From Amycolatopsis thermalba (GTDB lineage: Bacteria; Actinomycetota; Actinomycetes; Mycobacteriales; Pseudonocardiaceae), in assembly GCF_003385215.1 (NCBI RefSeq), contig NZ_PQHW01000007.1, forward strand, positions 62,001 through 126,000: a DNA stretch of 64,000 nucleotides. The letters run 5' to 3'. The notes beneath the pieces were generated by a model. That model was given only the letters and a program-made list of their open reading frames with translations. It did no database searches and was not told where the DNA came from. Made by a program: the position numbers and the translations under genes. Positions 237 to 15,003 of this stretch are shown piece after piece (position 1 is the stretch's first letter; each line of letters starts with the position of its first letter).

Positions 237-312
237 GGCGCGCCATATGCGGGATCGCACGGCGGGCGCGATACTCGCCGGTAATAACGCCCGCAGACAC
301 AGGAGTCGCCCC

Positions 313-1509
313 ATGGCCCGTCTGGCCCGGACCGCCGGTCTCACCGACGTGCAGCACGAGATCCTGTCCACCGTCCGCTCGTTCGTGGACAAGGAGATCA
401 TCCCGCACGCCCAGGAGCTGGAGCACGCGGACGCCTACCCGGCGGACATCGTCGAGGGCATGAAGGAGATGGGGCTGTTCGGGATCACCATTCCCGAGGA
501 GTTCGGCGGGCTGGGCGAGTCGTTGCTGACCTACGCGCTGGTGGTCGAGGAGATCGCGCGCGGGTGGATGAGCGTGTCGGGTGTGATCAACACGCACTTC
601 ATCGTGGCGCACATGATCTCCCGGCACGGCACGCCGGAGCAGAAGCAGAAGTACTTGCCGAAGATGGCACAAGGACTCGTTCGCGGTGCTTTTTCCATGT
701 CCGAGCCGGATCTGGGCTCGGACGTGGCGGCGATCAAGACGCGCGCGCGGCGGGACGGGGACGACTACGTCATCGACGGGTCGAAGATGTGGCTGACCAA
801 CGGCGGCTCGTCGAACCTGATCGCGCTGCTGGTGCGTACCGACGAAGGCGCGGAGAAAGCGCACCAGAACCTCACGACCTTCCTGGTGGAGAAGCCGGAG
901 GGCTTCGGTGAGGTGGCGCCGGGGCTGACGATTCCGGGCAAGATCGACAAGATGGGCTACAAGGGCGTCGACACCACCGAGGCGGTGTTCGACGGCTTCC
1001 GGATCCCGGCGTCGCAGGTCCTCGGCGAGGCCCCGGGCCGGGGGTTCGCGTTCATGATGGACGGCATCGAGGTGGGCCGGGTGAACGTGGCGGCGCGGGC
1101 GTGCGGGATCGCGATCCGGGCGTTCGAGCTGGCGGTGGAGTACGCGCAGCAGCGCCGGACGTTCGGCAAGCCGATCGCCCAGCACCAGGCGATCGCGTTC
1201 AAGCTGGCCGAGATGGCGACCAAGGTCGAGGCCGCGCACCTGATGATGGTCAACGCGGCCCGGCTGAAGGACACCGGCGAGCGCAACGACGTGGCGGCGG
1301 GCATGGCGAAGCTGATCGCGAGCGAGTACTGCGCCGAGGTGACGCAGGAGGCGTTCCGCATCCACGGCGGCTACGGGTACAGCAAGGAGTACGAGATCGA
1401 GCGCCTGATGCGCGAGGCGCCGTTCCTGCTCATCGGCGAGGGCACCAGCGAGATCCAGAAGACGATCATCAGCCGCGGCTTGCTGCGCGAGTACCAGGTC
1501 AAGAGCTGA
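313..1509 (+). CDS. Acyl-CoA dehydrogenase
   Basis: This 398-residue protein has the full acyl-CoA dehydrogenase architecture: N-terminal helical domain, middle beta domain with the FAD-contact motif MSEPDLGSD, and C-terminal helical bundle with RTFGKPIAQHQAI. The last segment, IGEGTSEIQ, contains Glu376, aligned with the catalytic base of medium-chain type enzymes. It should catalyse FAD-dependent alpha,beta-desaturation of an acyl-CoA in the cytoplasm. The ATG at 313 is preferred over the in-frame ATG at 247 because AGGAG lies at 301-305, 7 nt before it, and because family homology begins there. Substrate chain length cannot be read from sequence. Confidence 0.92.
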   Translation: MARLARTAGLTDVQHEILSTVRSFVDKEIIPHAQELEHADAYPADIVEGMKEMGLFGITIPEEFGGLGESLLTYALVVEEIARGWMSVSGVINTHFIVAHMISRHGTPEQKQKYLPKMAQGLVRGAFSMSEPDLGSDVAAIKTRARRDGDDYVIDGSKMWLTNGGSSNLIALLVRTDEGAEKAHQNLTTFLVEKPEGFGEVAPGLTIPGKIDKMGYKGVDTTEAVFDGFRIPASQVLGEAPGRGFAFMMDGIEVGRVNVAARACGIAIRAFELAVEYAQQRRTFGKPIAQHQAIAFKLAEMATKVEAAHLMMVNAARLKDTGERNDVAAGMAKLIASEYCAEVTQEAFRIHGGYGYSKEYEIERLMREAPFLLIGEGTSEIQKTIISRGLLREYQVKS

Positions 1510-1588
1510 TCAACCCCTGGTGTGTCGGGTTCGCGTGGTTTCATGGGGGTTGGCAGGATGAAGTCACTCGATCACTACGACAGCACAG

Positions 1589-2125
1589 GTGATGACCGTG
1601 ACCAGCCCGTTCTCCTCCGGCGGCCGTCAAGTACAGGGCCTGCCGCGCTTGCCGACGCCGCCCACGGGGTGGCCGATCGGCTCCTACGCCACCTACCAGG
1701 AGGCGCAGCGGGCGGTCGACTACCTCGCCGACAACCAGTTCGCGGTCGAGGACGTGACCATCGTCGGCGTCGACCTGATGCTCGTCGAGCGGGTGCTGGG
1801 CCGGCTGTCGTGGGGTCGCGTCCTCATGACCGGCGCGATCTCCGGCGCCTGGTTCGGCCTGTTCGTGGGTTTCCTGCTGGCGATGTTCGCCTCCGGCGCG
1901 ACGGTCACCTACCAGCCGATCCTGGTCGGCCTGGTCTCCGGTGTGCTGTTCGGCCTGGTGTTCGCCGCCATCAGCTACGCCTCCTCGCGCGGCCGCCGCG
2001 ACTTCGCCTCGGCCAGCCAGCTGGTCGCGGGCCGCTACGACGTCCTGTGCCAGCCCCGCAACGCTGAGCAGGGCCGTGACCTGCTGGCGAAGCTCGCGAT
2101 GCGGCCATCCGGGGCAACGGACTGA
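1589..2125 (+). CDS. Small membrane protein, general-stress YflT/Rv1234-like
   Basis: The 178-residue product has an N-terminal ~75-residue soluble part (SYATYQEAQRAVDYLADNQF, then VEDVTIVGVDL) resembling the general stress protein 17M fold. Two hydrophobic helices follow (about residues 85-105 and 112-130) and a short polar tail. In M. tuberculosis the homologue Rv1234 precedes the lpqY-sugABC trehalose importer, and the same order is kept here. GTG at 1589 and ATG at 1592 are adjacent possible starts. The function is unknown; a link to trehalose uptake is suggested only by conserved position. Confidence 0.75.
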   Translation: MMTVTSPFSSGGRQVQGLPRLPTPPTGWPIGSYATYQEAQRAVDYLADNQFAVEDVTIVGVDLMLVERVLGRLSWGRVLMTGAISGAWFGLFVGFLLAMFASGATVTYQPILVGLVSGVLFGLVFAAISYASSRGRRDFASASQLVAGRYDVLCQPRNAEQGRDLLAKLAMRPSGATD

Positions 2126-2198
2126 ATCGTGACCTCCACCGCTTGCGGACGGTGATCGCCGGGCATAGTTTCAGTTCCCACCGATCGTGCGACCCGGG

Positions 2199-2226
2199 TT
2201 GACACCCTCGGGTTGCTTGATTGCAT
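2199..2226 (+). promoter_or_regulatory. Candidate promoter of lpqY-sugABC
   Basis: TTGACA at 2199-2204 is a perfect -35 hexamer, followed after 16 nt by TTGCAT at 2221-2226 as a weak -10. The inverted repeat GCACG-ACGG-CGTGC at 2227-2240 lies directly downstream and could be an operator. Assigned by inspection only. Confidence 0.45.
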
Positions 2227-2282
2227 GCACGACGGCGTGCGGGGTGGGTCTCCCGCCGGCCGCGTGCCGAGGAGGAGGCCTG

Positions 2283-3599
2283 ATGGGGAACGGTAAGAGC
2301 CGGGGCAGGCCGCCCGGCCGGATCGCAGCGGTGGTCGGCGCGGGCATGCTGACCGCCGGGCTGGTGACCGCCTGTGGATCCGAACAGGGGATCACGCTCA
2401 ACCTGTACTACGCGCCGGAGGACACGTTCCAGTCGGTCGTGGACAACTGCAACGCCAAGGCCGAGGGGCGCTACCGGATCGTCTACAACAAGCTCCAGCG
2501 CGGCGCCGACGACCAGCGGCTGCAGATGGCGAGACGGCTCGCCGCCGGTGACGACGGCCTGGACATCCTGGGCCTGGACGTCACCTGGGTGCCGGAGTTC
2601 GCCGAGGCCGGCTGGGCCGAGGAGTGGACGGGGCCGAACAAGGCGCAGGCGGAGGCGGGCGTGCTGCCCGGCCCGCTGGCCACCGCCACCTGGAACGGCA
2701 AGCTGTACGCGGCCACGAAGAACACCAACGTCCAGCTGCTCTGGTACGACGACCGGATCACACCGCGGCCGCCCGCGACCTGGGACGAGATGATCAACCA
2801 GGCCGAGCAGCTCAAGGCGGCCGGCAAACCGCACAACATCCTGTTCACCGGCGCCCAGTACGAGGGCCTGGTGGTCATCTACAACACGCTGGTCGCCTCC
2901 GCGGGCGGGCGCATCCTCTCCGACGACGGCAAGTCCGTGGTCATGGACGAGGGCGCGGTGCAGGCGCTGGAGCTCCTCAAGCGGGTCACCTCCAGCGGCA
3001 TAACCGACCCGTCGCTGACGAACCAGAAGGAGGACGACGTCCGGCAGGCGTTCCAGCGCGGCAACGGCGCGTTCGAGCTGAACTGGCCGTTCGTCTACGC
3101 CTCCTACGCCGACGAGCAGCCGCAGGACCTGCAGCACTTCAAGTGGTCCACCTACCCGGCCGTCGACCCGGGGATCCCGGCGAAGACCACGATCGGTGGC
3201 TACGACCTCGCGGTCAGCACCACCTCCAAGCACAAGCCGGAGGCGTTCGAGGCGGCGCTGTGCCTGCGCAGCCCGGAGAGCCAGAAGTTCTCCGCGCTCA
3301 ACGACGGTGTCCCGCCGAGCATCGAGGCGCTCTACACCGACGACACCCCGCTCGACCCGACCAAGCCGGTCGACGCGGACAACAACCCGAGCATGGCCAC
3401 CGCGTACCCGATGCGGGACGCGATCCTCGCCGCGCTCAAGGATCCGGCGGTGCGCCCGCTGACCCCGGCGTACCAGAGCCTGTCCACGGTGATCTCCAAG
3501 GTGCTGTCGCCGCCGTCGGAGATCGATCCGCAGCGGACGGCCGAAGAGCTGCGCAGCAAGCTGACCGACGCGCTGAACTCGAAAGGGGTGATCCCGTGA
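2283..3599 (+). CDS. lpqY: Trehalose ABC transporter substrate-binding lipoprotein LpqY
   Basis: The protein has 438 residues. A basic N-terminus and hydrophobic stretch lead to the lipobox LVTAC, with Cys31 as the lipidation site, so the protein is anchored outside the membrane. The rest is a family 1 extracellular solute-binding protein. Stretches such as [33 protein letters not shown] and [10 protein letters not shown] match mycobacterial LpqY as I remember it. Start at ATG 2283 is set by GAGGAGGAGG at 2269-2278; the frame extends further upstream but without homology. The stop overlaps the GTG of sugA, so translation is coupled. With sugABC it forms an importer that in mycobacteria recycles trehalose. 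Confidence 0.9.
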
Positions 3600-4543
3600 G
3601 CACGGTCGAGGACGTTTCCACGACGCCACAGACCACGGCGAGAACGGGGAAAGCGGCCCTGAGCGAAGGGAAGAGGGCGGAGCGGCGGCTGGGCTGGCTG
3701 CTGTGCGCGCCCGCGGCGCTCGTGATGGTCGCGGTCACCGGGTACCCGATCGTCTACTCGATCTGGCTGTCGCTGCAGCGGTACGACCTGCGGTTCCCGC
3801 AGAACACCGAGTTCGTCGGGCTCGCCAACTACGCGGCGGTACTGTCGGACTCCTACTGGTGGACGGCGTTCGGCACCACGATGGCCCTCACGATCATCTC
3901 GGTGGCCATCGAGCTGGTGCTGGGCATGGTGCTCGCGCTGATCATGCACCGCACGCTCGTCGGGCGCGGCCTGGTGCGCACGGTGTCGCTGATCCCGTAC
4001 GGCATCGTGACCGTGGTCGCCGCGTTCTCCTGGTACTACGCGTGGACCCCGGACACCGGCTACCTGGCCAACACCCTGGCCGGGGACTCGGCGCCGCTGA
4101 CGCAGTACCTGCCGTCGATGGCGATCATCATCCTCGCCGAGGTGTGGAAGACGACGCCGTTCATGGCGCTGCTGCTGATGGCCGGGCTCGCGCTGGTGCC
4201 GGACGACCTGCTCAAGGCCGCGGCGATGGACGGCGCGAGCGCTTGGCAGCGGTTCATCAAGGTCATCGTGCCGGTGATGAAGCCGGCGATCCTGGTGGCG
4301 CTGCTGTTCCGCACCCTGGACGCGTTCCGCATCTTCGACAACATCTACGTGCTCACCGGCGGCCAGAACGACACGTCGTCGGTGTCCATGCAGACCTACA
4401 ACAACCTGATCAAGGGCCTGAACCTGGGCATCGGGTCGACGATGTCGGTGCTCATCTTCATCACGGTCGCGATCATCGCGTTCATCTTCATCAAGCTGTT
4501 CGGCACCGCGGCGCCGGGCAGCGACAAGGGAGGGAAGCGCTGA
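3596..4543 (+). CDS. sugA: Trehalose ABC transporter permease SugA
   Basis: The product is a 315-residue MalF-type permease with about six transmembrane helices, starting near residue 33. The cytoplasmic EAA loop that docks on the ATPase is visible as [20 protein letters not shown]. The GTG start at 3596 overlaps the lpqY stop by four bases (GTGA), and the gene ends in an ATGA-type overlap with sugB. It forms the channel together with SugB. Confidence 0.9.
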
Positions 4544-5385
4544 TGGTGATGGGCGGAGCGGTCACCACCGGCCGCAAGACGAAGTGGACGCTGATCGACA
4601 TCGTGGTGGTGGTCTACGCGCTGGTGCCGGTGCTGTGGATCCTGTCGCTGTCGCTGAAGACGAAGGACACCATCGACGACGGGAAGTTCATCCCGCGTTC
4701 GTGGACGCTGGAGAACTACGCGGACATCTTCCAGACCCTGGACTTCGTGCGGGCGCTGATCAACTCGATCGGCATCTCGATCATCGCGACGCTGATCGCG
4801 GTGATCCTGGGGACGATGGCGGCGTACGCGATCGCGCGGCTGGATTTCCCCGGCAAGCAGCTGCTGGTCGGGGTCTCGCTGCTGATCGCGATGTTCCCGC
4901 AGGTGTCGCTGGTGAGCCCGCTGTTCAACATCGAGCGCACGCTCGGGCTGTTCGACACCTGGCCGGGGCTGATCCTGCCGTACATCACGTTCGCGCTGCC
5001 GCTGGCGATCTACACGTTGTCGGCGTTCTTCCGGGAAATCCCGTGGGAACTGGAGAAGGCGGCCAAGATGGACGGCGCCACGCCCGGCCAGGCGTTCCGG
5101 CGGGTCATCGCGCCGCTGGCGGCGCCGGGCGTGTTCACCACCGCGATCCTGGTGTTCATCTTCTGCTGGAACGACTTCCTGTTCGCCATCTCACTGACCT
5201 CGACCAACGCGTCGCGGACGGTGCCGGCGGCGTTGTCGTTCTTCACCGGGGCCTCGCAGTTCGAGGACCCGACCGGGACGATCTGCGCCGCCGCGGTCGT
5301 GATCACCGTCCCGATCATCCTGTTCGTGTTGTTCTTCCAGCGCCGCATCGTCGCGGGGCTGACCTCCGGTGCGGTGAAGGGGTAG
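4543..5385 (+). CDS. sugB: Trehalose ABC transporter permease SugB
   Basis: This is a 280-residue MalG-type inner-membrane permease with six predicted helices and the EAA loop [20 protein letters not shown]. The ATG at 4543 overlaps the sugA stop codon (TGATG); a second in-frame ATG at 4549 is possible. It pairs with SugA to make the translocation pore. Confidence 0.9.
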
Positions 5386-5389
5386 CGCC

Positions 5390-6571
5390 ATGGCTGAGAT
5401 CGTGCTGGACAAGGTGAGCAAGCGCTATCCGGACGGTGCGCTCGCCGTGTCCGAAGTGGACTTGCAGGTCGCCGACGGTGAGTTCATCATCCTGGTCGGC
5501 CCGTCCGGGTGCGGGAAGTCGACCACGCTGAACATGGTGGCCGGGCTGGAGGACATCTCCTCCGGCGAGCTGCGCATCGACGGCGAGCGGATGAACGAGA
5601 AGGCGCCGAAGGACCGGGACATCGCGATGGTGTTCCAGTCCTACGCGCTGTACCCGCACATGAGCGTGCGGGAGAACATGGCCTTCCCGCTGCGGCTGGC
5701 GAAGATCGACGACGCCACGGTGAAGGCGAAGGTCGAGGAGGCCGCCGAGATCCTGGACCTGACCCCGCACCTGGACCGCAAACCGTCCAACCTGTCCGGT
5801 GGGCAGCGGCAGCGGGTGGCGATGGGCCGGGCGATCGTGCGCAGCCCCAAGGCGTTCCTGATGGACGAGCCGCTGTCCAACCTGGACGCCAAGCTGCGCG
5901 GGCAGATGCGGACGTCGGTGTCGAAGCTGCAGCGCCAGCTCGGCACGACCACGCTGTACGTCACGCACGACCAGACCGAAGCCATGACGCTGGGTGACCG
6001 GGTCGTGGTGCTGCGGGCCGGGTACGTGCAGCAGATCGGGTCGCCGCAGTTCCTCTACGACCACCCGGCCAACCTGTTCGTGGCCGGGTTCATCGGGTCG
6101 CCGTCGATGAACTTCGTGCCCGCGACGCTGGAGGACGGGAGCCTGAAGAGCCCGCTGGGCACGGTCGAGCTGCCGGACCGGCTGCGCCGCCTGGCGGAGG
6201 CGGCCGGTGCGCCGCGGGAGGTGATCGCCGGCATCCGGCCGGAGCACTTCGAGGACGCCGGGCTGCTCGACGACACCGCCACGCGCGGCGGGTGCGTGTT
6301 CAGCGCCCACGTGGACGTGCTGGAGTCGATGGGCTCGGAGAAGTACGCGTACTTCACGGTGGAAGGCGCGACGGCGACGTCGTCCGAGCTGGCGGAGCTG
6401 GCGGCGGACGCCGGAGCGGACGACGTGCCGGGCGGCGGAGCGTCCATCACGGCCCGGCTGTCCCCGTCGTCGGGCGCCCGGGAGGGCGGCACGCTCGACG
6501 TGTGGTTCGACGTGCAGAAGGTGCAGCTGTTCGATCCGTCGTCGGGGAAGAACCTGACCTACGAAGAGTGA
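5390..6571 (+). CDS. sugC: Trehalose ABC transporter ATPase SugC
   Basis: The 393-residue protein is a MalK/UgpC-type ATPase. Walker A is GPSGCGKST (residues 37-45), followed by the Q-loop region VFQSYALYPHM, signature LSGGQRQRVAMGRA, Walker B AFLMDEPLSNLD and switch VTHDQ. A C-terminal OB-fold region (about 240-385) is typical of sugar importers and contacts the partner subunit or a regulator. It starts 4 nt after sugB and ends the operon before a hairpin terminator. It powers import through SugAB. Confidence 0.92.
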   Translation: MAEIVLDKVSKRYPDGALAVSEVDLQVADGEFIILVGPSGCGKSTTLNMVAGLEDISSGELRIDGERMNEKAPKDRDIAMVFQSYALYPHMSVRENMAFPLRLAKIDDATVKAKVEEAAEILDLTPHLDRKPSNLSGGQRQRVAMGRAIVRSPKAFLMDEPLSNLDAKLRGQMRTSVSKLQRQLGTTTLYVTHDQTEAMTLGDRVVVLRAGYVQQIGSPQFLYDHPANLFVAGFIGSPSMNFVPATLEDGSLKSPLGTVELPDRLRRLAEAAGAPREVIAGIRPEHFEDAGLLDDTATRGGCVFSAHVDVLESMGSEKYAYFTVEGATATSSELAELAADAGADDVPGGGASITARLSPSSGAREGGTLDVWFDVQKVQLFDPSSGKNLTYEE

Positions 6572-6588
6572 CCGCGCTCCGGCGCGAC

Positions 6589-6625
6589 GAGGGCCACTTC
6601 TCCTGGCGGAGGGGTGGCCCTCTTT
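6589..6625 (+). terminator. Rho-independent terminator after sugC
   Basis: GAGGGCCAC at 6589-6597 pairs perfectly with GTGGCCCTC at 6614-6622, with a 16-nt loop and a short TTT tail. It lies 18 nt after the sugC stop. Confidence 0.75.
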
Positions 6626-6716
6626 CGTGCCCGGAGAACGCTGTGATTTAACCCACAAGAGTGATGGATTATTCGGTAATGTCGAATCACCGTTGGTATC
6701 GCGGAAGGGGATTCCG

Positions 6717-8243
6717 ATGACGTTGCCGATCGACGAGGTGCTGACCACCACCCGTGCGGTTCGGAGGCGGTTGCGGTTCGACCGGCCCGTCGCGCCGGAG
6801 GTGATCCGGGAGTGCCTGGAGGTCGCCGTGCAGGCGCCCAGCGGCGGGAACCGGCAGCCGTGGCGGTGGATCGTGGTGCGGGACGCGGAGCAGCGCGCGC
6901 GCATCGCCGAGGTCTACCGGTGGTGCTTCGCCGAATACGTCGCCGAGCTGGGCGACCCCGGGCCGTCCCGGGACCTGGACAGCGCCCGGTTCCTCGCCGA
7001 CAACCTGCACCGGGTGCCGGTGCTGGTGCTGCCGTGCCTCGTCGCGTCGCGGCTGCCCGAGGGCAGCCAGGCCGGTCTGTGGGGCTCGCTGCTCCCGGCC
7101 GCGTGGAGTTACCTGCTCGCCGCGCGGGCCCGCGGTCTCGGCACCGTGTGGACCACCTGTCACCTGCGGCGGGAGGCCGAGGTCGCGGAGATCCTCGGTC
7201 TCCCGCCGGGGATCCGCCAGGGTGCCCTGATCCCGACCGCCTACCACGACGGCGGCCCGTTCCGGCCGGCCCGGCGGGCGCCGCTGGCGGACGTGCTCGT
7301 GGTCGACCGGTGGCGGCGAACCCGGGAACTCGTGGCCGACCTCGACGACCCGTTCTTCTTCGACCACGAGCTCGACCACCTGCCCGGGATGCTGCTCCTG
7401 AGCGCCGCGCTGGACCTCGTGCGCCCGGCCGGGGCGGAGCCCGCTGTAGTCCTGACGCTCGACTTCCGGGGCATGGGGAAACTGGACGCGCCGGTCCAGC
7501 TGACCGCCGAGCCGAGCGAGTCGAGCACCGGGCGGTGGCGGGTGGAGGCCGGTCAGGAGGGGCGGACGATCATGACCGGCACGATCGAGGTGGGCGCCAC
7601 TGCTGAGTGGCCCCTGGGTTCGCTGGGGGATCCGCCGTGGCCTGCCGATTCCGGCGCGGTCGAGGTGGGCGCTGCCGTCGAGTGGCCCGTGGATTCGGTG
7701 GAGGATCCGGTGCGGTCTGCCGGTTCCGGCGCGGTCGAGGTGGGCGCTGCCGTCGAGTGGCCCGTGGATTCGGCGGAGGATCCGCGCCGGGTGGTGCGGC
7801 CCGTCGATCGGCGGCTGGTGCACCGCCGCCGGGCGGAGAACGTGGTCGTCGGCGACCTCGCCGAGAGCGAGCAGGACTGGCGCGTCACCGTGCTGCCGCC
7901 GCCGGCCGGACACCACCTCGACGGCGGGCGGACCGCGGAACGGCTGATCGAGGCGGCGCGGCAGTTCGTGACGCTCCTGGAGTACGCGGACAACCAGCGG
8001 CAGGAGGGCACCCGGTTCGTGCTGACGCGGCTGGCCGCCACGGTGCCCGCCGGCCCGTCCACCGGAGCGGTCCTGAGCTGGGCGAAGACCGGCACCCGAG
8101 GCAACCGGCCACGCTACGACGTACGGATCCTGGACGCGGACGGCCAGTGCGTGGGCTCGGTGACCGTGTGCGGCCGCGCCCTCAGCGATGCGGCGTTCCG
8201 CAGGCTGCGGGGCCGGGCGGTGCCGCAGCCTGCCGCGTTGTGA
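6717..8243 (+). CDS. Nitroreductase fused to a permuted AfsA-type double hotdog
   Basis: Residues 1-200 of this 508-residue protein are an FMN nitroreductase domain (TRAVRRRLRFDRPV, APSGGNRQPWRW, LGTVWTTCHL, then GLPPGIRQGALIPTAY). The rest resembles gamma-butyrolactone synthase AfsA. Residues 210-285 carry DDPFFFDHELDHLPGMLLL, the hallmark of the second AfsA half. Residues 364-498 carry VHRRRAENVVV, RLIEAARQF and SDAAFRRLRG, hallmarks of the first half. The halves are therefore in swapped order. They are joined by a linker (291-357) made of three ~25-residue repeats (EVGAAVEWPVDS...). The start is ATG 6717, where homology begins; no strong ribosome site is visible. AfsA condenses a beta-ketoacyl-ACP with a glycerol derivative and a flavin reductase could act on the product, but that coupling is inference. 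The gene lies in the sugC-corA insert. Confidence 0.75.
   Translation: MTLPIDEVLTTTRAVRRRLRFDRPVAPEVIRECLEVAVQAPSGGNRQPWRWIVVRDAEQRARIAEVYRWCFAEYVAELGDPGPSRDLDSARFLADNLHRVPVLVLPCLVASRLPEGSQAGLWGSLLPAAWSYLLAARARGLGTVWTTCHLRREAEVAEILGLPPGIRQGALIPTAYHDGGPFRPARRAPLADVLVVDRWRRTRELVADLDDPFFFDHELDHLPGMLLLSAALDLVRPAGAEPAVVLTLDFRGMGKLDAPVQLTAEPSESSTGRWRVEAGQEGRTIMTGTIEVGATAEWPLGSLGDPPWPADSGAVEVGAAVEWPVDSVEDPVRSAGSGAVEVGAAVEWPVDSAEDPRRVVRPVDRRLVHRRRAENVVVGDLAESEQDWRVTVLPPPAGHHLDGGRTAERLIEAARQFVTLLEYADNQRQEGTRFVLTRLAATVPAGPSTGAVLSWAKTGTRGNRPRYDVRILDADGQCVGSVTVCGRALSDAAFRRLRGRAVPQPAAL
7587..7787 (+). repeat. In-frame 75-nt tandem repeats in the hotdog linker
   Basis: Three consecutive units begin at 7587, 7662 and 7737. 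Units 2 and 3 are nearly identical over their first ~50 nt; unit 1 is diverged and unit 3 is truncated. Because 75 is divisible by three the reading frame is kept, adding 25 residues per unit (E-V-G-A-A-V-E-W-P motif) between the two hotdog halves. Confidence 0.9.
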
Positions 8244-8500
8244 GGTGGGCTTCGGTGATGGTGTGCGGCGCGCCGTCGGCGGTGCGGTGTTCCGCAGGCT
8301 GCGGGGCCGGGCGGTGCCGCAGCCTGCCGCGTTGTGAGGTGGGCTTCGGTGATGGTGTGCGGCGCGCCGTCGGCGGTGCGGTGTTCGGCAGGCTGCGGGG
8401 TCGGGCGGTGCCGCAGCCTGCCGCGTTGTGAGGTGGGCTTCGGCGATGGCGTGCGGCGCGTCCTCGGTGATGCCGCATTCCGCAGGCCGCGGTGACCGGG
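8157..8500 (+). repeat. 94-nt tandem repeats copying the 3' end of the fusion gene
   Basis: The last ~87 nt of the fusion gene plus its stop codon form unit 0 (8157-8250). Copies start at 8251, 8345 and 8439, exactly 94 nt apart. Copies 1 and 2 are almost identical (core TTCCGCAGGCTGCGGGG, end CCTGCCGCGTTGTGAG); copy 3 decays after ~60 nt. A further partial copy of the core lies at about 8550-8590. The whole 421-nt gap between the convergent stops (8244-8664) is filled by this material and holds no gene. Confidence 0.9.
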
Positions 8501-8664
8501 GGTCTCACCGTCGGCGGGCTCGCTGGGCTTCGGGCCGGTGTTCGGTCGCGCTCTCAGTGATGCGGCGTTCCGCAGGCTGCGGGGCCGCCCGGCGCCGCCG
8601 CCCGGATTGACCGGGGGCCTCGGCGTGCGGCGCGCGCTGCGGGGCCGGGCAGCGGCGCCGGCCT

Positions 8665-9513
8665 TCAGCGCCGGCGGGCCCGCAGCGCTTCGATGACCTC
8701 GTCGTCCCAGCGGTGTTGCCGGATCAGCCGGTAGCGCTCGCCCGCGACCCACATGTACGCCTCGGCCTCGGTGCGGTCCCCGATCAGCTCCGCCTGCCGC
8801 ATCATCTCCACCACCGGCAGGTACTCCTCGTCGTACCAGCGCCGGGCGATCGTCGCGCGGTCGAGGAACTTGCCCTCCGCCTGCATGAGCCGGAACCCCC
8901 ACGCCTCGACGTGCTCACCGAGGTGCGCGTAGTCCCACGGGTCGCTCACCACGATCGCCGCGCGCGCCTCGCCGGTCAGCGGCACCCGCGACAGGAACAG
9001 CCGCCGGTAGTCCTTGACGATCAGGTCGCCCCGGTAGCGGATGCCCTTCGGGTCGAGCTTGGTGTGCACCTCGGTCACCGACGCCTCGATGGTCTCCAGC
9101 CCGAGCGCGTAGGCGACCGACACGCGGTGGTGCCCGTCGATCACGAAGTGCAGGTCACCGACCCGGTACACCTCGATCGGCGGGATGTGCTCGCCGCGGC
9201 GGGCGGCCAGCGCGAGCCGTTCCCAGCGCTCCCGCACCCGGCCGGACGTGGGCCGGAACCGGCGGTCGAAGTCGCGGCCCCGGTCCACGCTGCCGACGAT
9301 CGAGTTCAGCGGGATCACCCGCCGCCCGATCCGCCGCTCGCCCGCGTACCCCAGCGCGTCCACGACCTCGTCGAACGGCAGCATGATGTTGACGTCGTCG
9401 GGTTCCCGGCGCAGCCAGTTCGCCAGCCGGGACAGCACCTGCCGCCGCCGGGCGCGCAGGAAGTCGTGTTCGGCGTCGGCGCGGGGGAAGCCGGTGTCGC
9501 GCGCGGGGGTCAC
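8665..9513 (-). CDS. ParB-like nuclease-domain protein
   Basis: The product has 282 residues. A helical N-terminus (residues ~15-50) precedes a ParB/sulfiredoxin-like core containing RVIPLNSIVGSVDRG and the diagnostic FVIDGHHRVSVAYALG, the segment that forms the CTP/phosphate-binding pocket in ParB folds. The C-terminal ~120 residues are helical and carry an EEYLPVVEMMRQ segment. The GTG start at 9513 overlaps the stop of the upstream metallophosphoesterase (GTGA), so the two are translationally coupled. It is not a chromosome-partition ParB: there is no partner ParA and no HTH of that type. Its biochemical role is unknown. Confidence 0.7.
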   Translation of the reverse strand: MTPARDTGFPRADAEHDFLRARRRQVLSRLANWLRREPDDVNIMLPFDEVVDALGYAGERRIGRRVIPLNSIVGSVDRGRDFDRRFRPTSGRVRERWERLALAARRGEHIPPIEVYRVGDLHFVIDGHHRVSVAYALGLETIEASVTEVHTKLDPKGIRYRGDLIVKDYRRLFLSRVPLTGEARAAIVVSDPWDYAHLGEHVEAWGFRLMQAEGKFLDRATIARRWYDEEYLPVVEMMRQAELIGDRTEAEAYMWVAGERYRLIRQHRWDDEVIEALRARRR

Positions 9514-10178
9514 GTCCGCACCTCGTGCGGGGTGAACTCGATGAGGTGCTTGCCGACGACGTTGCGGACTCGGGTCTCGCCCATCCGGTGCTCCCGGGGG
9601 TGTTCGCCGTAGGGGTGGATGTGGCCGTGCAGCAACCAGTCCGGCCGCATCCGCTCGACCACCGGGTGCAGGCAGTCGAAGCCGCGGTGCGGCGGGTCTT
9701 CGCGGTCGCCGACGCCGCGCGGCGGGGCGTGCGTCAGCAGGAAGTCGACGCCGCGGCCGTCGCGGCGCCGCCGGCGCGCCGCCTGCCGGACCAGGCCCCG
9801 GGCGCGGCGGGCCTGCTGCGCCTGGGTCCACTGGTTCGGCCCGTCGTTGTAGCGGACCGAGCCGCCCAGCCCCGCGATCCGCAGACCGCACACGTCGACC
9901 ACGCGGCCGTCGGCGTTGATGCCACCGGCCGGACCGGGCCACGCCTGCGGGAACCCGGCCCGCAGGAACAGGCCGCCGTGGCGGGTGAACCCGGACAGGT
10001 CCGGGTCGTGGTTGCCGGGCACGAACACGCACGGCACACCGCCCAGCGCGTCGGTCAGGAACTCCAGGTAGTCGAACGGCAGGTCACCGGCGGCCAGGAC
10101 GAGGCCGACGTCGCAGCCGGGGCCGATACCGGCCCACAGCCGCTCGTCGACCTCGTCGGCGACCACCAGTGCGCGCAT
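9510..10178 (-). CDS. Calcineurin-like metallophosphoesterase
   Basis: This 222-residue protein has most family metal-binding motifs: GDLPFDY, GNHDPD, LLTHAPPRG and HGHIHPYG. The first motif, normally DxH, reads ADEVDE (VVADEVDERLW at residues 5-15), so one metal-ligand histidine is replaced. The start is ATG 10178, because a -10-like TATCGT lies 6 nt before it, giving a leaderless message. The frame continues upstream without homology. It is the first gene of an operon with the ParB-like gene. The substrate is unknown; hydrolysis of a phosphodiester or nucleotide is the family expectation. Confidence 0.75.
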   Translation of the reverse strand: MRALVVADEVDERLWAGIGPGCDVGLVLAAGDLPFDYLEFLTDALGGVPCVFVPGNHDPDLSGFTRHGGLFLRAGFPQAWPGPAGGINADGRVVDVCGLRIAGLGGSVRYNDGPNQWTQAQQARRARGLVRQAARRRRRDGRGVDFLLTHAPPRGVGDREDPPHRGFDCLHPVVERMRPDWLLHGHIHPYGEHPREHRMGETRVRNVVGKHLIEFTPHEVRT

Positions 10179-10184
10179 GGGTCC

Positions 10185-10190
10185 ACGATA
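10185..10190 (-). promoter_or_regulatory. -10 element, leaderless start of the phosphoesterase
   Basis: On the minus strand TATCGT is followed by 6 nt (GGACCC) and the ATG at 10178. Confidence 0.5.
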
Positions 10191-10198
10191 GGGACTCC

Positions 10199-10312
10199 TC
10201 AGCGGGCCTGCGCGAGTTCCGGGTGGTCCGCGATCAGGACCGCCACCACCGCGATCCACGTCAGGGTCAACGCGAGCGCCCAGAACTTCACGCTCGTGAG
10301 CAGTCTGGTCAT
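10199..10312 (-). CDS. 37-residue single-pass membrane peptide
   Basis: A short ORF with a good ribosome site (AAAGGAG, 7 nt before ATG 10312) encodes a peptide with one hydrophobic helix (residues ~9-28, FWALALTLTWIAVVAVLIA) flanked by a short basic N-terminus and a polar tail ending HPELAQAR. It lies between corA (36 nt away, same strand) and the metallophosphoesterase. No family is recognised. The strong SD and clean hydrophobic profile argue that it is expressed. It could be a small partner of a membrane protein such as CorA, which is speculation. Confidence 0.55.
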   Translation of the reverse strand: MTRLLTSVKFWALALTLTWIAVVAVLIADHPELAQAR

Positions 10313-10348
10313 GAGTCGACTCCTTTCATCGAACACTTCAGGAATGGG

Positions 10349-11434
10349 CTACAGCCAGTTGTTCTTCCTGAATATTCGGTAAAGAAGCAGGCAGATCCCG
10401 AGAATCATGACGAGAACCGCCGGATAGCCGTACTGCCAGCGCAATTCCGGCATGTAGTCGAAATTCATGCCGTAGATACCCGCGATCATCGTGGGCACCG
10501 TGATCATCGCCGCCCACGAGGTGATCTTGCGCATGTCGCTGTTCTGCTGGAGCGTGATCTTGGCGACCGTCGCGTTCACCAGCGTCGTCAGCAGCTCGTC
10601 GAAGTTGCCCACCCGCTCCGACACGGTGGTCAGGTGGTCGTCGACGTCGCGGAAGTACGACCGGACCTCGTCGGGCACCAGCCGGGTGAACCCCTCGGCC
10701 AGCCGGCGCACCGGCGTGACCAGCGGCAACACCGCCCGGCGCAGCTCCAGCACCTCGCGTTTCATGAGGTAGATCTGCTCCGCGCTGACCGTCGACCGCG
10801 GCGCGAACACGCGCGCCTCCATCTCGTCGATGTCCTCCTCGATCGACGAGGTGACCTCCAGGTACTGGTCGACGATGAGGTCGGTGATGGCGTGCAGCAC
10901 CGCGGCCGGGCCGTTCACCAGCCGCTCCGGGTCCTCGTCGAGCTCGCGGCGCAGCCGGGCCAGCCCGGAGTGCGCCCCGTGCCGGACGGTGATGATGAAG
11001 TCCAGCCCGAGGAACGCCATCAGCTCGCCGCTCTCCACGATCTCGTTGGCCGTGGTGGGCGACTCGTGCTCGACGTAGCGGACCGTCTTGAGCACCATGA
11101 ACAACGTGTCGTCGTAGCGCTCCAGCTTCGGCCGCTGGTGCGCCTGCACGGCGTCCTCGACGGCCAGCTCGTGCAGGCCGTAGACCTCCGCGATGCCCTG
11201 GATCTGCTGCTGGTCGGGCTCGTGCAGGCCGATCCAGACGAACCCGTCACGCCGGCGCCGGACCTCCTTGATGGCCTCGGCGTGCGTCCAGCGCCCGGGC
11301 AGCCGTTCGCCGTCGACGTACACGGCGCAGTCGACGATGTAGGCCGACACCGGGACCGGCACGGGCGGCTCGACCCGGGTCGACCGGCCGTTGCCCCGGC
11401 CGCGCAGGCCACCGAGGGAGGGAATCGCAGGCAT
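10349..11434 (-). CDS. corA: CorA-family magnesium/cobalt transporter
   Basis: This 361-residue protein has a large soluble N-terminal domain, a long coiled-coil segment, and two C-terminal transmembrane helices. The first ends in the CorA signature YGMNF (AGIYGMNFDYM). The protein ends in a basic stretch (FRKNNWL). CorA forms pentameric inner-membrane channels for Mg2+. The start is ATG 11434, with AGGAG 6 nt upstream; the frame extends upstream without homology. In M. tuberculosis corA directly follows sugC on the opposite strand. Here about 3.7 kb of other genes are inserted between them. A small leader ORF lies 98 nt upstream. Confidence 0.92.
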   Translation of the reverse strand: MPAIPSLGGLRGRGNGRSTRVEPPVPVPVSAYIVDCAVYVDGERLPGRWTHAEAIKEVRRRRDGFVWIGLHEPDQQQIQGIAEVYGLHELAVEDAVQAHQRPKLERYDDTLFMVLKTVRYVEHESPTTANEIVESGELMAFLGLDFIITVRHGAHSGLARLRRELDEDPERLVNGPAAVLHAITDLIVDQYLEVTSSIEEDIDEMEARVFAPRSTVSAEQIYLMKREVLELRRAVLPLVTPVRRLAEGFTRLVPDEVRSYFRDVDDHLTTVSERVGNFDELLTTLVNATVAKITLQQNSDMRKITSWAAMITVPTMIAGIYGMNFDYMPELRWQYGYPAVLVMILGICLLLYRIFRKNNWL

Positions 11435-11531
11435 GGGATCTCCTGGCTTTCGCAGTGCGTACCACGACCGCCGGGCGGGCAGGAATGCGTCCGCTCGGCA
11501 CTGACCAGCGTTTTCCCGGGCGAAAAGAGAC

Positions 11532-11609
11532 CTAACGACCGGAGAGGATTCCGGCCATGCGGAGGGAAACGCTGGGTTTACTAGGGAGCGGACTATCGCC
11601 ACTACTCAT
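11532..11609 (-). CDS. Putative corA leader peptide (25 residues)
   Basis: Upstream of corA on the same strand an ATG at 11609 follows a near-perfect anti-16S site (GGAGGAGGTGAGG; the nearest GAGG is 8 nt from the ATG). It opens a 25-codon ORF with an acidic-proline start, MSSGDSPLPSKPSVSL, ending ...RMAGILSGR and TAG. Nothing else explains such a strong site 175 nt before corA. Short Pro-rich leaders control Mg2+ transporter genes in enterobacteria (mgtL), so a regulatory role is plausible but inferred. The remaining 11435-11531 has no other ORF. Confidence 0.5.
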   Translation of the reverse strand: MSSGDSPLPSKPSVSLRMAGILSGR

Positions 11610-11694
11610 CGTGCGTTCCTCACCTCCTCCAGCCGGACCGGCAACGTGGCGGCTGTCGCGTTGACGCACCGCCTCCATTGGCCGAGGGTACTCC

Positions 11695-11710
11695 TCAACA
11701 TCAGTTGACG
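11695..11710 (+). promoter_or_regulatory. Inverted repeat overlapping a -35 upstream of maoC-like gene
   Basis: TCAAC-ATCA-GTTGA (11695-11708) is a perfect 5-bp dyad, and its right half is part of a TTGACG -35-like hexamer at 11705-11710. No clear -10 follows. It could be the operator and promoter for the acyl-metabolism genes downstream. Confidence 0.35.
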
Positions 11711-11753
11711 TCGCTCCAGGTCGGTGTGGCGTTACCCGCAGGGAGGTCGAGCG

Positions 11754-12257
11754 GTGCAGTTCGGGCGGTATTTCGAGGAGTTCGAGGTGGGCGCGGTGTA
11801 CAAGCACTGGCCCGGCAAGACGGTGACCGAGTACGACGACCACCTGTTCTGCCTGCTCACCATGAACCACCACCCGCTGCACCTGGACGCGCACTACGCG
11901 GCCGAGACCACCGACTTCGGCAAGAACGTCGTGGTGGGCAACTACGTCTACTCGCTGCTGCTGGGCATGTCGGTGCCGGACGTGTCGGGCAAGGCGATCG
12001 CGAACCTGGAGATCGAGTCGCTGCGGCACGTCAAGCCGACCTTCCACGGTGACACCATCTACGGTGAGACCGAGGTGCTGGACAAGACCCCGTCGAAGTC
12101 GAAGGACGACCGGGGCGTGGTGTACGTGGAGACCCGGGGCTACAAGCAGGACGGCACGATCGTGTGCATCTTCCGCCGCAAGGTCCTGGTGCCGAAGCAG
12201 AACTACGGTGAGGCGCGTGGGGGCGAGCAACCGGGCCGTCCCGTTCCGCACGAGTGA
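11754..12257 (+). CDS. MaoC-family dehydratase
   Basis: The 167-residue protein is a single hotdog hydratase of the MaoC type. It contains TMNHHPLHLDAHYAAET (catalytic Asp/His region of R-specific enoyl-CoA hydratases) followed by VVGNYVYSLLLGMS. The GTG at 11754 follows GGGAGG at 11741-11746; an in-frame ATG at 11724 lacks such a site. It probably hydrates a trans-2-enoyl-CoA or acts on mesaconyl/beta-methylmalyl-type substrates, as in some actinobacterial homologues. It is first in a same-strand run with a DUF2332 protein and an acyl-CoA synthetase. Confidence 0.85.
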   Translation: MQFGRYFEEFEVGAVYKHWPGKTVTEYDDHLFCLLTMNHHPLHLDAHYAAETTDFGKNVVVGNYVYSLLLGMSVPDVSGKAIANLEIESLRHVKPTFHGDTIYGETEVLDKTPSKSKDDRGVVYVETRGYKQDGTIVCIFRRKVLVPKQNYGEARGGEQPGRPVPHE

Positions 12258-12267
12258 GGGAGAGCGC

Positions 12268-13371
12268 GTGACGATCGGGTTGGCCGAAGCCAAGCGGCAG
12301 CTGAGCGAGTTCGCCGGGAGCGCGGCGGGCGAGTCGCCGCTCTACGAGCACCTCGCGTCGAAGGCCGCCGAGGACGACGAGGTGGCCGGCCTGCTGGCCG
12401 CCGCGCCCGGCGGGGCGAGCCCGGCGCTGCTGTTCGCGGTCGCGCACCGGCTCATCCAGGCCGACCCGATCCACCCGCTCTCGCGCTACTACCCGTCGCT
12501 GGGCGGGTTCGACGGCGTCGACGGCCAGACCTGGCCGGTGTTCCGCGAGTTCCTGCTCGCGCACGCGGACGACGCGGCCGGGATGCTCGCGTCGAAGTCG
12601 CTGGCGAACAACGAGGTGCGCCGGGCCGCGTCGGCCTTCCCCGGGGTCGCGATGGCCGCCAAGCAGGCCGGCGGCAAGATCGCGTTGATCGAGGTCGGCA
12701 CCGCGGGCGGGTTGCTGCTGGGGATGGACAGGTTCGCCTACCGGTACCAGTGCGACGGTGGCGAGCAGCTGGTCGCCGGGCCGGCCAAGGCTGCCGTCGG
12801 GTTGCACTGCGCGCTCGACCTGGCGCCCGGCGCGGTGCTGCCGAAGCTGCCGAAGAAGCTGACCGTCGCCTCGCGGGTCGGGCTCGACCCGGCGCCGCTG
12901 GATCTGTCCGATGAGGACGAGCTGGCGTGGCTGGAGGCGTGCGTGTGGGCCGACCAGCCGGACCGGGTGCGGCTGCTGCGGGCGGCGGCGCTGGCGCAGC
13001 GCAAGTCGCCGCCGGAGATCATCGCCGCGGGCGCGGTCGGCGGGTTCGACGAGGCGGTGTCCCGGGTGCCCGCGGACCTGCCGCTGGTGGTGCTCACCAG
13101 CCGGACCATGGGCCACATTCCGGACGCCGACCGCGCCGAGTTCCTGTCCCGCATGGCCGCGCTGGGCCAGACGCGTCCACTGTGGTGGGTCATGGACGAG
13201 ACGTACGAGCACGGGCTGTCCGCGGTGCTGCCGGGCCGGGACGAGCTGGCCTTCGCCCGGGACGGCCTGACGACGCTCGGGCTGGCGCGGCGCACCGCGG
13301 ACGGCTGGGACGCCGTCGCCCTGGCCCGCACCACGCGCTACGGCGCCCGGATGACCTGGCTGGCCGCCTAG
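12268..13371 (+). CDS. DUF2332 family protein
   Basis: This 367-residue protein has the features of the DUF2332 family common in actinobacteria. The N-terminal part includes DPIHPLSRYYPSLGG, the middle IALIEVGTAGGLLLGMDRF resembles a methyltransferase-like glycine motif, and near the C-terminus is PLWWVMDE. GTG 12268 is chosen because it follows GAGGGAGAG by 4-5 nt. It lies 10 nt after the MaoC gene and 39 nt before the acyl-CoA synthetase, so it is probably cotranscribed. Its biochemical role is not known. Confidence 0.8.
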   Translation: MTIGLAEAKRQLSEFAGSAAGESPLYEHLASKAAEDDEVAGLLAAAPGGASPALLFAVAHRLIQADPIHPLSRYYPSLGGFDGVDGQTWPVFREFLLAHADDAAGMLASKSLANNEVRRAASAFPGVAMAAKQAGGKIALIEVGTAGGLLLGMDRFAYRYQCDGGEQLVAGPAKAAVGLHCALDLAPGAVLPKLPKKLTVASRVGLDPAPLDLSDEDELAWLEACVWADQPDRVRLLRAAALAQRKSPPEIIAAGAVGGFDEAVSRVPADLPLVVLTSRTMGHIPDADRAEFLSRMAALGQTRPLWWVMDETYEHGLSAVLPGRDELAFARDGLTTLGLARRTADGWDAVALARTTRYGARMTWLAA

Positions 13372-13410
13372 CTGTTGTGTGGCCGGGTCCACTGCGGTGA
13401 GGATGTGGTC

Positions 13411-15003
13411 ATGGCTGAGGACACGTGGTTCACCCCGCTCACCCCGCTGGCGTTCCTGGAGCGCTCCGCCGAGGTCTTCGCCGACAAGGAGGCCATCGTC
13501 TACGGCGAGCGCCGCGTGACCTACCGCGAGTTCGCCGCCGAGGCGACGCGCGTGGCGCGGGCGCTGCGGGCGAGCGGTATCGAGCCCGGGGACCGCGTGG
13601 CGTACCTGCTGCCGAACATCCCGGAGATGCTGGTCGCGCACTTCGCGGTGCCGCTCGCCGGCGCGGTGCTGGTCGCGATCAACACCCGGCTCGCGCCGGC
13701 CGAGATCCGCTACATCCTCCAGCACTCCGGGGCGAAGGTGCTGGTCGTGGACGCCGCGTTGCACGCCTCGGTGCCGCCGGACGCCGGCGTGGACATCGTG
13801 ACGGTGGTCGACGGCGCCGCGCCGGATCCGGCCGTCGGCGGCATCACCTACGACGAGCTGCTGGCGCGCGGCAGCGACGAGCCGCTGCCGTGGCGCGTCG
13901 CGGACGAGCGGTCGACGATCTCGATCAACTACACCTCCGGGACGACGGGACGGCCCAAGGGCGTCCAGTACCACCACCGGGGCGCGTACCTGAACTCGCT
14001 CGCCGAGATCATCCATTCGGGTCATTCGCCGGAGTCGAAGTACCTGTGGACGCTGCCGATGTTCCACTGCAACGGCTGGTGCACGACGTGGGCGGTCACC
14101 GCGATCGGCGGCACGCACGTGTGCCTGCGGGCGGTCGACGCGGCGGAGATCTGGCGGCTGCTGGACGGCGAGGGCATCACGCACCTCAACGGCGCGCCGA
14201 CGGTGCTGAACACGATCGCGGGCTACTCCGGGGCGCATCCGCTGTCGCGCGAGGTCGTGGTGACCACGGCCGGGGCGCCGCCGTCGCCGACCGTGATCCG
14301 GCGGATGACGGACCTGGGCGCGCGGCTGGTGCACGTGTACGGGCTGACCGAGACGTACGGCCCGTACACGGTGTGCGAGGCGCAGGAGGGGTGGATCAAG
14401 CTCGACATCGCCGAGCGGAGCAGGCTGATGGCGCGGCAGGGCGTCGGGATGCTGGTGACCGACGGGATCCGCGTGGTGGACGAGCAGATGCGCGACGTGC
14501 CCCGCGACGGCGTCACGATGGGCGAGGTCGTGATGCGCGGGAACAACGTGATGTCCGGCTACTTCGCCGACCCCGAGGCGACGGAGAAAGCGTTTCGCGG
14601 CGGCTGGTTCCACTCCGGCGACCTGGGCGTGTGGCACCCGGACGGCTACATCCAGCTGCGTGACCGGGCGAAGGACATCATCGTCTCGGGCGGCGAGAAC
14701 ATCTCGACGATCGAGGTGGAGGCGGCGCTGGACTCGCACGAGGCCGTCGCGGAGGTCGCGGTGGTCGGCGTCCCGGACGAGAAGTGGGGCGAGCGGCCCA
14801 AGGCGTACGTCGTGCTGCGCCCCGGGGCCGCGGTGACGGCCGAGGAGCTGCGGTCGCACGTGCGGGAGCAGATCGCGCGCTTCAAGGTGCCGGACCGGGT
14901 GGAGTTCGTGGCGGCGCTGCCGAAGACCTCGACGGGGAAGATCCAGAAGTTCCAGCTGCGCGAACGGGACTGGAGTGGCGCGGAGAGCCGCATCCAGGGC
15001 TGA
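13411..15003 (+). CDS. Acyl-CoA synthetase (AMP-forming)
   Basis: The 530-residue protein has the complete ANL-superfamily motif set: P-loop YTSGTTGRPKGV, GLTETYGPYTVCEAQ, HSGDLGVWHPDGYIQLRDRA, then SGGENISTIEVE and the C-terminal catalytic lysine in KTSTGKIQKF. It activates a carboxylic acid to acyl-AMP and then acyl-CoA. Overall it resembles the medium-chain/3-methylmercaptopropionyl-type group of ligases. ATG 13411 is preceded by GGTGAGGA. The neighbouring MaoC gene suggests a shared fatty or short-chain acid degradation role. Confidence 0.9.
   Translation: MAEDTWFTPLTPLAFLERSAEVFADKEAIVYGERRVTYREFAAEATRVARALRASGIEPGDRVAYLLPNIPEMLVAHFAVPLAGAVLVAINTRLAPAEIRYILQHSGAKVLVVDAALHASVPPDAGVDIVTVVDGAAPDPAVGGITYDELLARGSDEPLPWRVADERSTISINYTSGTTGRPKGVQYHHRGAYLNSLAEIIHSGHSPESKYLWTLPMFHCNGWCTTWAVTAIGGTHVCLRAVDAAEIWRLLDGEGITHLNGAPTVLNTIAGYSGAHPLSREVVVTTAGAPPSPTVIRRMTDLGARLVHVYGLTETYGPYTVCEAQEGWIKLDIAERSRLMARQGVGMLVTDGIRVVDEQMRDVPRDGVTMGEVVMRGNNVMSGYFADPEATEKAFRGGWFHSGDLGVWHPDGYIQLRDRAKDIIVSGGENISTIEVEAALDSHEAVAEVAVVGVPDEKWGERPKAYVVLRPGAAVTAEELRSHVREQIARFKVPDRVEFVAALPKTSTGKIQKFQLRERDWSGAESRIQG

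Follow-up and report, generated by a model that had tools for sequence, protein, structure and literature searches.

AfsA-type enzymes open the best-known hormone pathway of Streptomyces. AfsA, ScbA and BarX (PF03756, NF041195) consist of two hotdog halves; each half carries an E-xx-RQ motif, and the second half also has FDHxxDHxPGM. According to passages of PMC7756379, AfsA joins dihydroxyacetone phosphate (DHAP) to a 3-keto thioester to give a phosphorylated butenolide, and passages of PMC5735094 give reduction of the ring double bond as the predicted step of BprA/GblC. Polyketide synthases that end in an AfsA domain have been described before, in parts of PMC7756379 and PMC7756420; there the AfsA-like PBS domain of the gladiostatin/gladiofungin system also lies inside a larger polypeptide.

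The Amycolatopsis protein described here shares with AfsA, ScbA and BarX both hotdog halves, FDHxxDHxPGM, E-xx-RQ and a half-by-half profile kinship. It differs from them in that its halves are reversed, the second E-xx-RQ is lost, its score falls far under the equivalog cut-off, it is joined to a nitroreductase, and no receptor gene was recognised among the ORFs scanned around it. Whereas the gladiostatin/gladiofungin domain ends a polyketide synthase in the parts of those sources that describe it, the AfsA part here follows a flavin reductase. Among the closest known proteins is the 'AfsA-related hotdog domain-containing protein' of Streptomyces durmitorensis plasmid p1 (WP_249593304.1), which has the swapped order and is 31% identical over 92% of the A. 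deserti copy used as query (A. deserti is the named source of fusion relative L037), but which is unfused, its nitroreductase being a separate gene, the second downstream, in a ten-gene run. None of the literature matches listed, in a search that most subscription journals lay outside, deals with an AfsA that is swapped or joined to a nitroreductase. On balance, we favour a bifunctional enzyme, in which a swapped AfsA domain would act as phosphorylated-butenolide synthase and the attached domain as reductase of its product; by analogy with AfsA and BprA/GblC we give this a probability of about one half.

Domains of the fusion gene and the order of its halves

In the window, by which we mean the whole 64,000-nucleotide stretch of DNA that was analysed, the fusion gene is open throughout for 508 codons plus a stop. 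Its features, together with its upstream neighbour, are as follows.

5390..6571, + strand: upstream neighbour, the ATPase of a sugar-type ABC transporter (ABC_tran and OB_MalK)
6717..8243, + strand: fusion gene, 508 aa, in the order nitroreductase, AfsA second-half-like hotdog, linker, AfsA first-half-like hotdog
6768..7220, + strand: nitroreductase domain, residues 18-168 (PF00881, E 2.6e-26), grouping with the nitroreductases of swapped-AfsA clusters (88/88)
7287..7598, + strand: hotdog half corresponding to the second half of ordinary AfsA, first in order, residues 191-294 (canonical-only HMM, hhalign, tree)
7353..7391, + strand: FFFDHELDHLPGM, residues 213-225, including D216, H217, D220 and H221; D, H, D and H are kept in the swapped and canonical sets
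7576..7785, + strand: in-frame tandem repeat (unit of 75 bp, 2.8 copies) that makes the linker longer
7806..8213, + strand: hotdog half corresponding to the first half of ordinary AfsA, last in order, residues 364-499 (canonical-only HMM, hhalign, tree)
7944..7967, + strand: LIEAARQF, residues 410-417, the kept E-xx-RQ helix motif (E412, R415, Q416)

The nitroreductase that the sequence-only reading had placed at residues 1-200 is confirmed by Pfam, where PF00881 scores 93.3 bits against a cut-off of 23.5 and covers a near-complete domain (model positions 9-159 of 167). The best nitroreductase-type NCBIfam score is that for BluB, at 51 bits far below its cut-off of 150, and the solved structures matched by this domain include deiodinases, BluB and, weakly, albonoursin synthase. 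PF03756 matches the whole protein in two stretches (E 3.8e-10; 40.4 bits, above the curated cut-off of 24), beginning at residue 190, within the nitroreductase tail. The C-terminal half alone scores 19.4 bits, below the 24-bit cut-off, and its assignment therefore rests on other tests. The NCBIfam ScbA model NF041195 likewise matches in two stretches, residues 187-290 aligning with model positions 179-289 and a C-terminal fragment with positions 2-157; the 80.2 bits do not reach the equivalog cut-off of 200. The two signatures lie where they had been placed from the letters, FFFDHELDHLPGM from residue 213 and LVHRRRAENV from residue 367. The window's own genome holds no second AfsA match at E up to 0.001.

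The order of the halves was read with one HMM per half, built from 44 ordinary AfsA proteins only. The second-half HMM matches the fusion at residues 191-294 with 63.8 bits and the first-half HMM at 364-499 with 25.1 bits; as for the cross-assignments, the first-half HMM gives no hit on the N half and the second-half HMM 5.8 bits on the C half. By hhalign, the N half of the AfsA part aligns with canonical columns 200-305 (99.7%) and the C half with columns 16-170 (98.9%); the C half also matches the other canonical half more weakly (90.7%), as related hotdogs would be expected to. A tree of 88 separate halves, taken from 22 of the 44 canonical and 22 of the 37 swapped proteins, divides (100/99) into canonical second halves with swapped N-halves on one side and canonical first halves with swapped C-halves on the other, and a pairing by position is recovered as a single split in none of the 200 bootstrap trees. 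Thus, by profile and by tree, the two AfsA hotdog halves stand in reverse order. Within the same tree the swapped N-halves form one clade (100/98) and so do the swapped C-halves (98/89), a pattern that points to one permutation event and fits a single origin of the swap.

Among 71 AfsA-type ORFs examined as ordinary ones, the order could be read in 50, and it is first-second in all 50: 49 are plainly first-second (44 of them distinct) and one is first-first-second. The other 21 showed a second-type half alone and include L085, a relic of the swapped family. This bears out the sequence-only reading, in which the usual AfsA order is opposite to that of the fusion. In the swapped family, by comparison, 37 of 39 loci, the four fusions included, read second-first, the other two (L172, L175) being partial, so that AfsA homologues cannot all be read in one order. 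Alignments of the swapped proteins to the second-half model leave out its first residues, beginning at position 8 to 24 of the model, so that the first strand of the second-type half is missing or diverged.

One might ask whether misassembly or a chance likeness of motifs explains the order. The genome is a draft of 222 contigs, and tandem repeats lie both within and after the fusion gene: in addition to the linker repeat, a 94-bp repeat of 4.9 copies at 8151-8602 of the window begins within the last coding stretch of the gene and repeats it, with the stop, downstream. Against this, the identical order occurs in three more genomes, of which two (G008, G018) are single-contig or nearly so, as well as in 33 loci beyond the fusions, and the halves tree splits at 100/99; we see practically no chance that the order is an artefact. 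Misassembly is ruled out by the orthologues in the three other genomes, and chance motif resemblance by the canonical-only HMMs, hhalign, the halves tree and the order in 37 of 39 family loci. The reversed halves, the AfsA kinship and the join to a flavin reductase, all proposed by the sequence-only reading, are therefore upheld by the profiles, the tree of halves and three orthologues.

The fusion is found in 4 of 19 genomes of the genus, namely the window's own (G000) and G006, G008 and G018, whose copies are 83-85% identical to that of the window and lack the extra linker length from the 75-bp repeat. When the four fusion genes are compared in pairs, dN/dS in the three domains is 0.09-0.39 for the five pairs that are more distant and 0.00-0.20 for the close pair G008/G018; in the linker it reaches 1.55, over 15 aligned codons only. 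By these ratios the four fusion genes are under purifying selection. As for the neighbourhood, the ABC-transporter ATPase is present in 19 of 19 genus genomes, with fusion domains in its 1.5 kb flank in 3 of 19 (one surveyed stretch, L224, ends short downstream, and the G006 fusion lies about 2 kb beyond the flank). The upstream ABC transporter is thus unsupported as a functional partner and probably not part of the fusion's function. No TetR gene was recognised among the ten neighbouring ORFs from 247 to 15000, of which three lack a family match, the permease stretch at about 3.7-5.4 kb having been scanned in the wrong frames.

A swapped family with its own gene neighbourhood

A search for other proteins with the same domain order, as the sequence-only reading had proposed, returned the three Amycolatopsis orthologues and 33 loci that carry the reversed order unfused to a nitroreductase. 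These 33 are colinear full-length matches outside the fusions, summed over searches of the same family, two further families (f19, f3), one genus (g71) and plasmids. In the same family, 6 of 390 genomes have an unfused swapped AfsA (seven loci); in family f19 15 of 250 genomes, in genus g71 2 of 246 (plus one partial match), and in family f3 7 of 300 (eight loci). A class sample gave 3 of 394 genomes, and the same three recur in f19. The S. durmitorensis plasmid is the sole one of 85 matching plasmid records with at least 80% query coverage. That the swap arose along with the fusion is ruled out, since all 33 loci share the swap. Pfam AfsA matches 37 of 37 swapped proteins (E up to 0.1); matches to other hotdog families are weak and limited to one member per family. 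On NF041195, four swapped relatives score 62-93 bits, while the canonical protein L053 scores 360 in one stretch. Naming rules may pass over the cluster that these proteins mark: with an equivalog cut-off of 200, the scores of the five members tried are 62-93, and the one annotated member seen bears no fuller name than 'AfsA-related'.

Several observations stand beside these. Two genomes have two swapped AfsA loci apiece (L129 and L130 in G115, L203 and L204 in G1394). The partial locus L175 (G1007, about 9.2 kb) holds a 196-aa ORF that is a first-type half alone, swapped-family-like, and close to it lies a PPDK-type match of 39 residues. The plasmid search also matched eight Aliiroseovarius records, which suggests that AfsA-like proteins occur outside Actinobacteria.

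The record annotation of S. durmitorensis gives, after the AfsA-related protein, a run of an ICMT-type methyltransferase, a nitroreductase, a PEP/pyruvate-binding protein, a P450, an NTF2-like protein, a nucleotidyltransferase, a thymidylate kinase and two KASIII. Pfam backs the ICMT, the nitroreductase, PPDK_N with PEP-utilisers, the P450, SnoaL_2 and KASIII; the kinase has a marginal match (27.9 vs 27 bits) and the nucleotidyltransferase none. The 33 loci were searched with these cluster proteins, and some stretches stop at contig ends, so that the counts are lower bounds: ICMT occurs in at least 31, a PPDK/PEP-utiliser type in at least 32, P450 in at least 26, nitroreductase in at least 18, KASIII in at least 14 and at least 3 (two queries), NTF2 in at least 8, and the nucleotidyltransferase and the kinase in at least 6 each. 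None of the cluster genes was found in the stretch of L130. A partial control is provided by 89 loci from ordinary-type AfsA matches, each just 2.7-3.5 kb, which gave ICMT in 0, nitroreductase in 1 (the relic L085), PPDK-type in 1 (L198) and KASIII in 4 and 2. ICMT mostly lies about 1 kb or less from the swapped gene, and the contrast is therefore fair for ICMT, not for more distant genes. On these counts, the swapped proteins are a family with its own gene neighbourhood. The one control locus with a PPDK-type match, L198 (G1293), has an ordinary-looking AfsA match beside it.

This gene content admits a different view of the family, namely that it heads a pathway to cyclic enol-phosphate triesters of the salinipostin, cyclipostin or cyclophostin kind, a product class described before, and that the Amycolatopsis fusion is a remnant or offshoot of this pathway. 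PPDK-type, nucleotidyltransferase-like, kinase-like and methyltransferase genes beside an AfsA relative speak for it, as does a common origin of such compounds with A-factor, suggested in part of PMC6681047; we nonetheless rate it as quite unlikely. When the cluster proteins were run by tblastn against the whole window and 17-19 kb around the three other fusions, only the nitroreductase and AfsA parts were matched; relatives of ICMT, the PPDK type, P450 and KASIII did not turn up beside any of the four. A PPDK-type protein gave no match at E up to 0.001 in G006, G008 and G018, and in G000 a partial match only.

Motif pairs and the predicted reaction

The swap bears directly on where the active site of AfsA may lie. 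All 37 swapped and all 44 canonical proteins have the D, H, D and H of FDHxxDH. In the E-xx-RQ of the first-type half, R and Q are kept in 37 of 37 swapped proteins and the acidic residue is E in 30 and D in 7. In the corresponding columns of the second-type half, Glu is found in 4, Arg in 0 and Gln in 2 of the 37. The fusion protein follows the same pattern: it keeps FDHxxDHxPGM (213-225) in the second-type half and E-xx-RQ (412-416) in the first-type half, and it has S, L and D at the E, R and Q columns of the second-type half, where the motif is thus absent. Of the 37 swapped proteins, 29 retain the His that belongs to the first-type half itself. From these alignments, one putative catalytic motif pair is kept in 37 of 37 and the mirror pair is largely lost. 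A natural swap that keeps one pair throughout names the likely AfsA active site and makes it testable.

In FabZ, the His of one subunit faces the Glu of the other. By sequence the analogy to an AfsA site is weak: the ordinary-AfsA profile reaches FabZ chain 4h4g over the PGxxxxEAxxQ helix at E 1.4, below chance kinase chains at 0.96, and no solved relative of the AfsA part matched by sequence below E 0.1. Taking the analogy as a guide, the halves, as separate hotdog domains, would form the same pseudo-dimer whichever comes first, and their shared active site would survive the swap. Of the two mirror-image sites to be expected from FabZ, a single composite one would be left whole, FDHxxDH from the second-type half with E/D-xx-RQ from the first-type half, indifferent to the order of the halves. 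ScbA mutants at Glu78 and Arg243 are reportedly impaired, and the chemistry of the swapped family may differ from that of AfsA if Arg243 falls in the second-half motif.

Another possibility is that the swapped AfsA domain has kept fold and acyl binding for a different acyl transfer or condensation, with an acceptor other than DHAP or in a dehydratase- or thioesterase-like step, and that the nitroreductase acts on whatever product results. The second E-xx-RQ is mostly lost and the kept one has Glu replaced by Asp in 7 of 37; several canonical near-invariants are also replaced (E to N after VHR; the AQWPR stretch), and NF041195 gives 80 here and 62-93 in four relatives, against the cut-off of 200 and the canonical 360. 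We nevertheless consider it somewhat unlikely, as every one of the 37 proteins retains DHxxDH and E/D-xx-RQ, the halves cluster with those of AfsA, and all 37 match Pfam AfsA, where other hotdog families match one member each, weakly.

Returning to the synthase-reductase that we favour, its reaction can be sketched from what is known of AfsA. Consider the swapped domain presented with a 3-keto-acyl thioester: it would condense this with DHAP or a similar C3 phosphate, ring closure of the resulting ester would yield a phosphorylated butenolide, and the activated C=C of its ring would then be reduced by the attached flavin reductase, as predicted for BprA/GblC elsewhere. The cluster evidence agrees with the proposal of the sequence-only reading that one polypeptide might both make a butenolide-type signal and reduce it, as a predicted activity, the signal role being hypothetical. 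For assays, the fusion offers a ready synthase-reductase link.

Origin of the fusion

In four loci (L131, L135, L200, L202) a separate nitroreductase lies directly upstream of the swapped AfsA gene, on the same strand and in the fusion's order. These four are not one clade; the tree needs four changes to accommodate them, of which well-supported branches force at least three, and the upstream arrangement was therefore gained more than once or lost repeatedly. In the tree of swapped proteins the fusions have their own long branch, without a near unfused relative. The fused nitroreductases form a clade (100/99) within a group of 16 of the 18 cluster nitroreductases and one stand-alone Amycolatopsis enzyme; this group, at 88/88, is not strongly supported, and L131 falls just outside it and L135 elsewhere. 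Around the stand-alone enzyme (L012), the 18.6 kb examined (L230) contain no cluster gene. Since a separate nitroreductase recurs near swapped AfsA, directly upstream in these four loci, the fusion probably joined two neighbouring cluster genes.

The same neighbourhood weighs on what the nitroreductase domain does. Nitroreductase-family enzymes also catalyse other chemistry, and the domain might be a flavin oxidase, a dehydrogenase or an unrelated redox partner whose fusion merely couples expression. The solved-structure matches, with deiodinases, BluB and weakly albonoursin synthase among them, would suit such a role. Moreover, no nitroreductase was found in the fetched stretch of 15 of the 33 loci, and the enzyme is thus not needed in every pathway of the swapped family. 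At the same time, the neighbourhood with swapped AfsA is recurrent, directly upstream on four branches of which at least three are separate, and the ten S. durmitorensis cluster genes include no other BprA-like reductase by annotation and Pfam (BprA itself was not a query), so that we hold a non-reductase role to be unlikely.

With a reductase role preferred, a wider scenario can be put forward tentatively, at somewhat less than even odds. An ancient single permutation would have given rise to a separate family of butenolide synthases with one working site of two, heading an undescribed, widely scattered actinobacterial cluster for methylated and/or phosphorylated butenolides; in a few Amycolatopsis, the synthase and the cluster's reductase would then have fused into a stand-alone bifunctional enzyme, able to produce a reduced butanolide on its own with no need of the other cluster genes.

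A different rearrangement is seen in genome G129, where L085 and the partial locus L172 are the same place. Here a 227-aa ORF (L172, 8878-9561) carries a second-type AfsA half in frame with the C-terminal portion of a nitroreductase; it looks like what a deletion within a swapped-AfsA/nitroreductase cluster would have left behind.
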